64,000 nt of DNA. Origin: Brachyspira sp. SAP_772 (lineage in GTDB: Bacteria > Spirochaetota > Brachyspiria > Brachyspirales > Brachyspiraceae). The stretch is taken from assembly GCF_009755885.1 (NCBI RefSeq), contig NZ_VYIX01000002.1, positions 602,875-666,874 on the forward strand. Reading direction: 5' to 3'. Below are positions 20,029-25,940 of this stretch, one piece after another (the first letter of the stretch is position 1; each line of letters begins with the position of its first letter). Below the pieces are notes generated by a model. That model saw nothing but the letters and a program-made list of their open reading frames with translations. It was not told the origin of the DNA and searched no databases. The position numbers were made by a program, and so were the translations under genes.

Positions 20029-20985
20029 TTATTTTGTATACTTCTTTATAAATTTTTCTACTACATCAAACATATCTTTAGTCCAAAACTGCCAATCGCT
20101 ATGATCAGCATTTTTTACAGTATAAAACTCATAAACTCTATTTTCTTTTTTTAACTTATCAGCTAAAATTTTACTCTGACTAAATGGCACAACACTATCA
20201 GTATCACCATGTGCTAAAAATATAGGCGGTAAATTATCAGCTTTTGAAATCTCATAATAAGGACTTGCTTTTTTTGCTTCTTCAGGATAATCATAAACAT
20301 TTTTTCTTCCTATTAATATTCCTTCAGGACTCTCAGCATCTCCTGTAGTAGTTTTTAATGGGTCATTTCTCATTTCAAGTATATCTGTTGGCGGATAATA
20401 TGCAATTATCGCATTCATATAAGGTATTGTATTATCATTATCGCTTAAAGGTATTGCTGTAAATAAAGCAGTATGTGCTCCTGATGAAGTTCCCCAAACA
20501 AATACATTATTAGTATCAACATTATATTTATCTGCATTATTTATCATAAAATTAAGTGCGTCTCTTGCATCTTCAATTTGTGCTGGAAAAATTGCTTCAT
20601 CGCTTGGTCTATATTCAACTATAGAAACAACATAGCCTCTTCTAGCAAAATCTCCCATCACTACTAAATTCTGATAAACATTCTGCTTTCTCCATCTTGA
20701 ACCTTGTATAAATAAAACTAATGGATATTTTGAGTTTGTATCATTTCTTTTTAGTTTTGGTGTTAATATTTGAAGAGATAAATCAATGCCGTCTTTATTT
20801 GTGTAAATAACATTTGGTGTGTAATCAACATTAAAAACAGTATTTTTTTCTTCTAATACTATATTGCCTTCTTCATTTGTGTATATTGTAAAATTATTCA
20901 TACTATTATTTCCTTCATTTTTAGATGAATTATTACAAGAAACAAAAATCAAACAAAAAATAAAAATCATTAAAATTTTTTTCAT
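20029..20985 (-). CDS. Alpha/beta-hydrolase lipoprotein (esterase/lipase-like), downstream copy
   Basis: A 318-residue exported lipoprotein: the signal peptide ends in the lipobox IFVSC (Cys17). The hydrolase fold resembles the BD-FAE/carboxylesterase group: PLVLFIQGSRWRKQN (oxyanion-hole region), nucleophile Ser in VWGTSSGAHTALF, Asp in HGDTDSVVPF, and His in KNADHSDWQFW. It probably hydrolyses esters at the outer face of the cell or in the periplasm. It is a close paralogue of the gene at 21249-22202, with long identical stretches, and so arose by tandem duplication. Substrate unknown. Confidence 0.88.
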   Translation of the reverse strand: MKKILMIFIFCLIFVSCNNSSKNEGNNSMNNFTIYTNEEGNIVLEEKNTVFNVDYTPNVIYTNKDGIDLSLQILTPKLKRNDTNSKYPLVLFIQGSRWRKQNVYQNLVVMGDFARRGYVVSIVEYRPSDEAIFPAQIEDARDALNFMINNADKYNVDTNNVFVWGTSSGAHTALFTAIPLSDNDNTIPYMNAIIAYYPPTDILEMRNDPLKTTTGDAESPEGILIGRKNVYDYPEEAKKASPYYEISKADNLPPIFLAHGDTDSVVPFSQSKILADKLKKENRVYEFYTVKNADHSDWQFWTKDMFDVVEKFIKKYTK

Positions 20986-21248: not shown

Positions 21249-22202
21249 TTATTTTTTATATTTGTTTATAAACTCTTCAACAATATCAAACATATCTTTA
21301 GTCCAAAACTGCCAATCACCATGATCTGCATCTTTTAAAGCATAAAACTCATAAACTCTATTTTCTTCTTTTAATTTATCAGCTAAAATTTTACTTTGAT
21401 TAAAAGGAACCAAATTATCACCTGTACCATGTACTAAAAATATAGGAGGCAGCTCTTTAGCCTTTGAAATCTCATAATAAGGGCTTATCTTTTTAGCTTC
21501 TTCTGGATAGTCATAAACATTCTTTCTTCCTATTAATATGCCTTCAGGGCTCTCAGCATCTCCTGTAGTAGAACCTAAAGGATCATTTCTCATTTCAAGT
21601 AAATCTGTAGGAGGATAATATGCTATAATGACATTCATATTTGGTATTGTGTTATCATTATCACTCAAAGGTATTGCTGTAAATAATGCAGTATGTCCGC
21701 CTGATGAATCTCCCCACACAAATAAATTGTTTGTATCAGCATTATATTTATCAGCATTATCAAGCATAAATTTAATAGCATCTCTTGCATCTTCTATTTG
21801 TGCTGGAAAAACTGCTGTGTCGCTTGGTCTATATTCAACTATAGCAACAACATATCCTCTCCTCGCAAAATCTCCAAGAGCAACCAAATTTCTATACACA
21901 TTTTGTTTTCTCCATGCCGAACCCTGTATATAAACTATTAATGGATATTTAGCATTTGTATCAACATTAAGAAGTCTAGGAATCATTATTTGAAGAGTTA
22001 AATCTGTATTGTCTTTTCTAGCATATACAACATTTGGAATATATTCCATACTATAATGAATATTCTTTTGTTCAAATGTTACACTTCCATCTTCATTTGT
22101 AGTTGTTATTATAGTGTCCATATTACCTTCTACATTGTTGTTTGACTTACTGCATGAAACAAATATAATCAAAAAACTTAAAACAATCAATATATTTCTC
22201 AT
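21249..22202 (-). CDS. Alpha/beta-hydrolase lipoprotein (esterase/lipase-like), upstream copy
   Basis: About 317 residues. I take the ATG at 22202 (MRNILIVLSFLIIFVSCSKS): it has an AGGAG site at normal spacing and gives a standard lipoprotein signal with lipobox IFVSC. The frame extends 9 codons further upstream. Catalytic elements are VYIQGSAWRKQN, nucleophile Ser in VWGDSSGGHTALF, Asp in HGTGDNLVPF, and His in KDADHGDWQFW. The nucleophile elbow is GDSSG, against GTSSG in the downstream paralogue. The pair is probably transcribed together, with a hairpin between them. Confidence 0.88.
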   Translation of the reverse strand: MRNILIVLSFLIIFVSCSKSNNNVEGNMDTIITTTNEDGSVTFEQKNIHYSMEYIPNVVYARKDNTDLTLQIMIPRLLNVDTNAKYPLIVYIQGSAWRKQNVYRNLVALGDFARRGYVVAIVEYRPSDTAVFPAQIEDARDAIKFMLDNADKYNADTNNLFVWGDSSGGHTALFTAIPLSDNDNTIPNMNVIIAYYPPTDLLEMRNDPLGSTTGDAESPEGILIGRKNVYDYPEEAKKISPYYEISKAKELPPIFLVHGTGDNLVPFNQSKILADKLKEENRVYEFYALKDADHGDWQFWTKDMFDIVEEFINKYKK

Positions 22203-22327
22203 TTTTAAAACTCCTGTAAATAAAAACATGTTTATATTTATATATTACATGGATTTTATATTATGTCAATTGTTTAATATATTAGATTCAAAATTATATT
22301 AATTGTTAATTTATTTTTTGCTTTCTA

Positions 22328-23883: not shown

Positions 23884-25047
23884 TTAGTTTAATGAAGGTA
23901 AGTACCAAGTTATACCTGTAGTAGTTTCAAATAATACAGGAGATAGATTAGCATTAGCAGAAGTACCTTGTTGACCATTTACATTACCATTAACATCCAT
24001 CTCAAAGTACCATTCTAAGTCTTCAACAGGAGTTACATACATTTCTGCATAAGCCTGCCAAGTTAAATAATGCTGAGTTTCTTGTACTGAACCTGCTTCT
24101 TTTCTTTTTTGTGAAGTTACTGCATAACCTAAACCAGGTTCAAAATAAAGAGATACTATATCACTGCTTGCTGCCAAAGATAATATTGGTTTAACAGCTA
24201 CATAGAAAGGACTAACATCATATATGTCTGATTGCTTTTGAGTATTTAAATCTATAGCATTTGCACCATTATTATAATTATTATACATATTTTCTAATGT
24301 ATAATTGCGACCGAACTGATCAAGAGTAGCATAATTTCCTTTTAATGCTTGGTGATACTCTATTCTGATATAAGGATTAACTGCTACATTACCCACTTGA
24401 GTATTTAAGAAATATAATCTTAACTGCAAGCCAAGAGTTTCAATAGCATTTTTAGTTGTACCATTTTCCCAAGTACCGTTTTTATATGAAGCATATAATC
24501 TTATTAAATTAAATGCATCTATTCCTGTATAATATCTTAATTCTATTTGATTAAATCCTACACCAGTAAATTTACTACCTGCTACTCCATTAACTTTATC
24601 TGTTACAGCAACTTGTATAGGTGCTGCTATTCTTAAATTATTGTTTAAAGCATTAAATACTAATGTAGGTGTATGAACTTGTAAATATTTGTCTACATAA
24701 TTGAAGTTATATCCTACCCCTATACCAAACATATCAGAAGTGTATCCTATACCTGCAGACAAAGTAGGGTTAAAATCAACCTTATTATTTTCTGTAGTAC
24801 TAGGGCTTAGTATAGAACCCATCCAACCTTGATCAGCGTAAACACCAAAAGTACCTTTTATTGTACCATTTCCTAAAGTGAAGCCCAACTGATTCATTCT
24901 AGCTCTTAATTGATTGCCATGTACGAGGAAGTTAATCCAGTCATCACCGTCTACACCATACATACCAAATGCTGAAACTGATGTCATTAATAAAGAACCT
25001 ATTACAGCAACTAAGAACTTTATTTTTTTGCTAACTTTTTGTATCAT
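23884..25047 (-). CDS. Variable surface protein, Vsp39 family
   Basis: A 387-residue exported outer-membrane protein. The signal peptide (KFLVAVIGSLLMTSVSAFG) and the mature start GMYGVDGDDWINFLVHGNQ match the Brachyspira Vsp (Bhmp) family, including the GNGTIKGTFG and DQGWMGSI phrases that follow. The body alternates aromatic and polar residues, as expected of a beta-barrel. In B. hyodysenteriae these proteins occur as tandem vsp genes and are major, serologically variable surface antigens (established knowledge). Here only one copy is present. Expression is probably strong: AGGAG site, hairpin-bearing leader and own terminator. A 19-base homopolymer lies in the promoter region. Confidence 0.92.
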   Translation of the reverse strand: MIQKVSKKIKFLVAVIGSLLMTSVSAFGMYGVDGDDWINFLVHGNQLRARMNQLGFTLGNGTIKGTFGVYADQGWMGSILSPSTTENNKVDFNPTLSAGIGYTSDMFGIGVGYNFNYVDKYLQVHTPTLVFNALNNNLRIAAPIQVAVTDKVNGVAGSKFTGVGFNQIELRYYTGIDAFNLIRLYASYKNGTWENGTTKNAIETLGLQLRLYFLNTQVGNVAVNPYIRIEYHQALKGNYATLDQFGRNYTLENMYNNYNNGANAIDLNTQKQSDIYDVSPFYVAVKPILSLAASSDIVSLYFEPGLGYAVTSQKRKEAGSVQETQHYLTWQAYAEMYVTPVEDLEWYFEMDVNGNVNGQQGTSANANLSPVLFETTTGITWYLPSLN

Positions 25048-25111
25048 AAAGTTATCTCCTAAATATTTTTTATACTATTACCCATTGCTGAGTATAAGCA
25101 TCAATATAACT

Positions 25112-25135
25112 GCTGAACAAATTTCTTTGTTCAGC
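25112..25135 (-). promoter_or_regulatory. Perfect hairpin in the vsp leader
   Basis: A 10-bp perfect stem (GCTGAACAAA with TTTGTTCAGC) around a 4-base loop, 65 bases upstream of the vsp start and inside the presumed 5' UTR. Such leader hairpins can stabilise abundant mRNAs; the role here is inference. Confidence 0.6.
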
Positions 25136-25165
25136 ATTAGAGAAAAAGTTTTATTAACTACAAGT

Positions 25166-25192
25166 ATTGTAAAAAAAAAAAAAAAAAAACAA
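25166..25192 (-). promoter_or_regulatory. Candidate vsp promoter containing a 19-base T tract
   Basis: On the minus strand 19 consecutive T (25171-25189) end in TACAAT (25166-25171), a good -10 box. TTGTTT (25187-25192) is a possible weak -35 box; the spacer would then be 15 bp and consist entirely of T. Changes in tract length would alter box spacing, as in known phase-variable promoters. Box assignment is by eye. Confidence 0.5.
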
Positions 25193-25261
25193 TATGAAAA
25201 TATGATATTTTTGATATTTTTTACTTAAATACAGAAAAAATTTTGTGCAAATATGAGGCTT

Positions 25262-25440: not shown

Positions 25441-25625
25441 GCTGACTATTTAGCTTAACAAATTCATCAAAATTTGAACGACCTTTAGGCTTCCACCACA
25501 ATCTGTATACAAATTTACAGTATACACCCCGCACGCAGAACTAAATTTAAAATATTTATAAAATTATCATTAAAATTTTATTATATTAAAAAAGTTTGTT
25601 GCACCGTGCGGTTATAATTTTTGCA
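25441..25625 (+). repeat. CCGCACG/CGTGCGG palindrome element, copy 1
   Basis: Begins CTGACTATTTAG and continues through GACCTTTAGGCT and AAATTTACAGTAT to CCGCACGC (25529-25536). An AT-rich loop of about 65 bases follows, then CCGTGCGG (25604-25611) and TTATAATTTTT. It matches 25945-26175 in order and spacing, so the two are direct duplicates about 510 bp apart. Confidence 0.7.
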
Positions 25626-25697
25626 ATATTTTTTATTTATAAATAAATACCCAAACAACTATATTTTGTCAAAAATGAATTTTTAAAATTAAAATAT

Positions 25698-25786
25698 TTG
25701 CGGGGCTTTGCCCCGCACCCCAGTTCTTTTGCCGATAGGCACCTACTCGGTATTGGTATAAAAGAACCAAAAAAACTGCATTTTTA
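25698..25786 (-). repeat. A-type double-hairpin repeat, reverse orientation
   Basis: Read on the minus strand: TGCAG, GGTTCTTTTATACCAAT, an inserted inner hairpin (CCGA with TCGG), AAAAGAAC, then GCGGGGC/GCCCCGC around AAA, then CAAAT. The inserted inner hairpin is the same as in the copy at 31829. Confidence 0.8.
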
Positions 25787-25868
25787 ATCTAAATTTAGGT
25801 TATATCCACATTTAATATATATGTTTTTTATATAAAGTTTTAGTAATTGCTTTTTTGAGAAACTTGCC

Positions 25869-25940
25869 TGCGACCGAAGGAAGTGCCCGTGGTGCGACCG
25901 AAGGAAGTGCCCGTGGTGCGACCGAAGGAAGTGCCTGCGG
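25869..25940 (+). repeat. 24-bp tandem repeat, three units
   Basis: Units are 25869-25892, 25893-25916 and 25917-25940. The first two are identical and the third differs only near its end. The core of each is GCGACCGAAGGAAGTGCC, the module found singly (mostly in reverse complement) inside the hairpin repeats at 9.4, 28.7, 29.2, 31.6 and 33.5 kb. Confidence 0.9.

Follow-up and report, generated by a model that had tools for sequence, protein, structure and literature searches.

The window, the whole 64-kb stretch of DNA analysed here, carries on its minus strand a vsp gene preceded by a long T homopolymer. The Serpulina_VSP profile (PF05540) matches residues 10–382 of the 387-aa product over profile positions 2–403 of 403, with an E-value of 1e-102 and 344 bits against a cut-off of 22.9. 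The domain thus spans the whole protein and places it in the Brachyspira Vsp family, in agreement with the first-pass annotation, which had named the gene downstream of the tract as vsp. Vsp proteins are major antigens of the outer membrane, with a profile that varies widely from strain to strain (PMC5415613), and the PF05540 match together with that reported location marks the product as surface exposed. The features of the gene and of the region upstream of it are as follows.

23884–25047, minus strand: vsp, variable surface protein of 387 aa.
25056–25060, minus strand: ribosome-binding site AGGAG, read from the sequence and invariant in six species.
25072–25095, minus strand: leader hairpin 2 (ATACTCAGCAATGGGTAATAGTAT), conserved; a one-sided change keeps one pair.
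25111–25136, minus strand: leader hairpin 1 (TGCTGAACAAA-GAAA-TTTGTTCAGCA), in which three base pairs show compensatory changes across five species.
25166–25171, minus strand: putative −10 box TACAAT, invariant in six species, which shares its first T with the end of the tract.
25171–25189, minus strand: T19 homopolymer filling the promoter spacer, T18–T20 across six species.
25187–25192, minus strand: putative −35 box TTGTTT (TTGCTT in G004), with TTG invariant in six species.
25193–25211, minus strand: A/T-rich block (ATATTTT.ATA) 5′ of the −35 box, conserved in the six-species alignment; possible UP element.

The coding strand of vsp (minus) reads CATATTG-T19-ACAATACTTG, which on the plus strand of the window appears as ACAAGTATTGT followed by A19 (25171–25189) and CAATATG. 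The tract (25189 to 25171 on the minus strand) lies 123 nt 5′ of vsp, and the sequence bears out the earlier report of a 19-base homopolymer beside TACAAT. That report had 19 T directly preceding TACAAT and a TTGTTT on the far side; the adjacency and the hexamer are both there, although T19 includes the first T of TACAAT (25171 to 25166) and, at its other end, the final TTT of TTGTTT (25192 to 25187). With TTGTTT as the −35 box and TACAAT as the −10 box, the spacer consists of T only and is 15 bp long, the length originally given. The repeat tract therefore sits between the predicted boxes, as in phase-variable promoters of the vlp and porA type, and touches TACAAT rather than forming a T-rich run upstream of the −35 box, as in the extended promoters of Borrelia. 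Transcription of vsp is predicted to start near 25159, giving a leader of ~110 nt. The pairs of leader hairpin 1 were counted by hand, RNAalifold having misplaced its loop-length difference, and a search of Rfam with the leader hairpins returned no match. Other vsp genes carry different but recurring leader hairpins (AGAGGATC and GATCCTCT types). Elsewhere in the window, a dispersed repeat at ~25610–25940 (~70–170 bp, dozens of genome copies) is G+C-rich in an A/T-rich genome, and two adjacent, closely similar esterase-like lipoprotein genes (20029–20985 and 21249–22229, by inspection) are likely a tandem duplication.

After T19, the longest A/T run of the window measures 9, and T19 is the sole A/T run of at least 12 in the whole 3.04-Mb genome. 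A first-order Markov model built from the window sequence predicts, per genome, 33 runs of at least 12, 4.9 of at least 14 and 0.04 of at least 19. Long A/T runs are thus depleted in this genome, to which T19 is an exception, and because of this depletion a chance origin in an A/T-rich genome is ruled out. Likewise, an assembly or sequencing artefact is ruled out because five other Brachyspira genomes have T18–T20 at the same site. Twenty-six Brachyspira genomes together contain 68 runs of at least 12, of which two genomes matching uncultured-bin assemblies (G020 and G021) account for 20.

A search across genomes with both flanks and a free gap between them recovered the promoter in six genomes, with one assembly per species, and every tract is T18–T20. 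The window genome (G000), B. alvinipulli (G002) and G018 have T19, G023 has T18, G004 has a C followed by T18, and G022 has T20; none of the six intact genes with this promoter has a shorter tract. Both boxes are conserved across the six species, and the alignment retains TTG, the tract, TACAATACT and the leader through to the start codon. Conservation begins at the A/T-rich block (25193–25211) and is lost beyond ~20 nt 5′ of the tract; a conserved stretch running from there to the start codon is what is expected of a promoter spacer. The promoter is real and conserved, and its spacer is probably slippage-prone. In a seventh species (G025), the vsp orthologue is disrupted by several in-frame stops; in this pseudogene the tract has shrunk to T7 and TACAAC replaces TACAAT while the leader is otherwise well conserved. 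All six intact promoters therefore have a long tract and the sole dead copy a short one, which is what selection on the tract would predict in this single case.

The species that bear the tract are scattered over the rpoB tree, where the window genome groups with G011–G014 (95–96% identical). No gene neighbourhood was found to be shared between the window locus and the other tract-bearing genomes, so that gene order gives no clue to function; since it is unshared, the promoter and the vsp gene appear to travel together. Five of the tract-bearing genes could be placed in a tree of 44 Vsp proteins, where they all fall in a single seven-member clade (support 80/93), whose remaining members, from G010 and strain G79, have a different promoter; this pattern fits a single origin followed by promoter replacement. 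A scan of viral contigs for the vsp leader gave no match. B. hyodysenteriae is the usual model for Vsp variation. G007, which is presumed to be that species by inference, lacks the tract and has no A/T run of at least 12, so that, if the assignment is right, this promoter cannot explain Vsp variation in B. hyodysenteriae.

Spacer length would offer a route from tract length to promoter activity. In the fetched Brachyspira DNA, a sample enriched for vsp loci and with partly related sequences, promoters of the form TTGACN-n-TATAAT have n = 16 in 24 cases, n = 17 in 18 and n = 15 in one. Tracts of T18, T19 and T20 correspond to spacers of 14, 15 and 16 bp, which puts the T19 of the window one base below the usual 16–17 bp. 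With usual spacers of that length, T18–T20 should cover weak to normal activity. For vsp, low expression is predicted at T19, increasing with one or two extra T's; tracts of ~T20–T21 should give high expression and shorter ones low.

Similar promoters occur elsewhere in the genus. A TTG lies within 6 nt 5′ of the tract in 19 of 46 distinct intergenic tracts of T12 or longer, compared with 3 in the mirror control; because these 19 include four vsp copies and a few others that are mutually related, the independent cases number about a dozen. A −10-like hexamer (at least 4 matches to TATAAT at a spacing of 14–19 bp) follows in 15 of the 19. The genes 3′ of such TTG-tract pairs mostly encode exported proteins, as judged by eye from their N-termini, namely lipoproteins and outer-membrane-like proteins; the lipoproteins include one with BspA-type LRR_5 repeats (E 6e-40) and one NMT1-like binding protein (E 1e-13). 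Two products do not fit this pattern, a GTPase-like protein (G015) and a 52-aa protein (G008 and G019). Tract length differs between closely related copies. The tract of one lipoprotein promoter is T12 in G015 and T17 in G022; the two loci are identical over 400 nt on the downstream side and 96% identical over 100 nt on the upstream side. If a TTGTTT ending five bases 5′ of the tract is taken as the −35 box, the spacers would be 16 and 21 bp. A second pair, whose upstream side is interrupted by a contig end, has T12 in G009 and T23 in G022 with 98.7% identity over 399 nt downstream, and paralogue pairs within G001 have T16/T17 and T12/T13. In contrast, a TTGC-T10 promoter has T10 in 15 of 15 copies measured, although its loci were fetched by a pattern requiring at least T10, which shorter versions would escape, so that this control shows only the absence of longer versions.

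Poly-T spacer promoters (T12–T23) were seen across the genus (loci L058–L087, L127–L156 and L217–L250). Poly-G tracts of G10–G17 (loci L088–L117) are present in many Brachyspira genomes, often within coding genes for epimerase-, methyltransferase- and radical-SAM-like proteins, and look like candidate frameshift switches. The window genome itself has G13 within an epimerase-like gene (L099, G000:C2:437064), and B. innocens has a G11 tract ~227 nt 5′ of a vsp gene, between two vsp genes (L094, G008:C106:23787). It is about as likely as not that contingency promoters whose spacers are poly-T (T12–T23) form a genus-wide set before lipoprotein and outer-membrane genes, vsp being the most conserved, alongside the poly-G tracts in coding genes. 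If such a set exists, every cell would have its own combination of surface components.

The best explanation of the vsp tract, and in our judgement a fairly probable one, is phase or level variation of vsp by slippage in the promoter spacer. The T19 tract would form the spacer of a sigma-70-type promoter in which replication slippage within a clone adds or removes T's; the changed T count would alter the distance from the −35 box (TTG) to the −10 box (TACAAT), and with it the rate of transcription. One of several Vsp proteins would in this way undergo reversible variation in phase or level, from which the cell could benefit. The possible phase-variable switch put forward in the first-pass annotation is well supported by comparison in its promoter-spacer geometry and its slippage-prone tract, the latter through T18–T20 in six species, T7 in the pseudogene and length differences between near-identical flanks; control of expression by tract length we only infer. 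Changes in the length of this long tract were seen between species only (T18–T20 at vsp, larger differences at similar tracts). Counting against a switch, TTGTTT is a weak −35 box, the tract is missing from the presumed B. hyodysenteriae genome (G007), the vsp range is narrow and none of the six promoters has a 17-bp spacer; a fixed length with modest drift would be compatible with these lengths.

Such a fixed length is what would be found if the T tract served the promoter structurally, as a stretch of stiff or bent DNA aiding RNA polymerase, near-constant in length and without a switching role, as in Borrelia vmp/ospAB. We consider this unlikely. It is kept alive by the narrow length range at vsp, which stays within T18–T20 in species of several clades, and it draws further on the constant T10 promoter described above and on the T-run that is reported, in work cited in PMC3974855 and PMC2525819, to enhance transcription at variable surface protein promoters of another spirochete. 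The run in B. hermsii, however, lies upstream of the promoter, whereas the Brachyspira tract fills the spacer and touches the −10 box, and this position between the boxes weakens the explanation. Moreover, a pure T19 would be inherently unstable as a fixed element, were T-richness alone important, interrupted tracts such as that of G004, with its C, should be more common, and similar tracts in the genus differ by 5–11 T between near-identical loci.

Two other accounts would deny spacer length the leading role. Slippage may be real with control exerted by a regulator bound to the inverted flanks (TATTGT / ACAATA), which would offset the short spacer and leave tract length to fine-tune expression, an arrangement that we find quite improbable. 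The TATTG/CAATA inverted repeat around the tract is conserved in six species, and the spacer is one or two bases under the usual range, as such a regulator would allow; yet the repeat, short and overlapping both promoter boxes, may be due to chance, and no regulator is known. It seems very improbable that the promoter lies elsewhere, either with a start well upstream, so that the tract is transcribed as a U-run, or just downstream, with the tract having no spacing role in either case. The window does contain a weak TTGTAG-16-TCTAAT pair just 3′ of the tract, but this pair is unconserved, G004 lacking its TTG and the other species its −10 box, and the end of conservation ~20 nt 5′ of the tract leaves little room for a second conserved promoter.

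A slippage promoter would offer a simple and directly testable mechanism for Vsp variation in several species, would bear on Vsp proteins as vaccine candidates, and the same promoter design may explain other surface lipoproteins. Our search of open-licence papers found nothing relevant on homopolymer-based switching, phase variation or simple repeats in Brachyspira, and the open-licence literature searched describes no switching mechanism for Vsp.

The vsp tract likely joins a known kind of slippage switch. The comparison with porA of Neisseria meningitidis, drawn in the first-pass annotation, is apt: as reviewed in PMC3899988 (van der Ende 1995), a poly-G homopolymer separates the −35 box from the −10 box, and single-base changes alter the promoter spacer of an outer-membrane protein gene, although the porA tract is shorter, consists of G and has been shown by experiment to act in this way. 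Among spirochetes, Borrelia vmp/ospAB likewise has a long T-run at variable surface protein gene promoters (Sohaskey 1999, as cited in PMC3974855 and PMC2525819). Unlike the vsp tract, the B. hermsii run is upstream of the promoter and is reported in those sources as an enhancer, and antigen variation in B. hermsii proceeds by gene conversion. The vlp genes of Mycoplasma hyorhinis come closer. According to the review in PMC10502178 (Citti and Wise 1995), slippage in a promoter poly-A tract turns vlp transcription on and off. Both vlp and vsp are variable surface protein genes with an A/T homopolymer in the promoter, and the two tracts are similar in length. The vlp tract, poly-A on the coding strand where vsp has poly-T, precedes all members of its family, whereas the Brachyspira tract occurs in one vsp lineage only; switching was shown by experiment for vlp, and for vsp it is predicted from the sequence.
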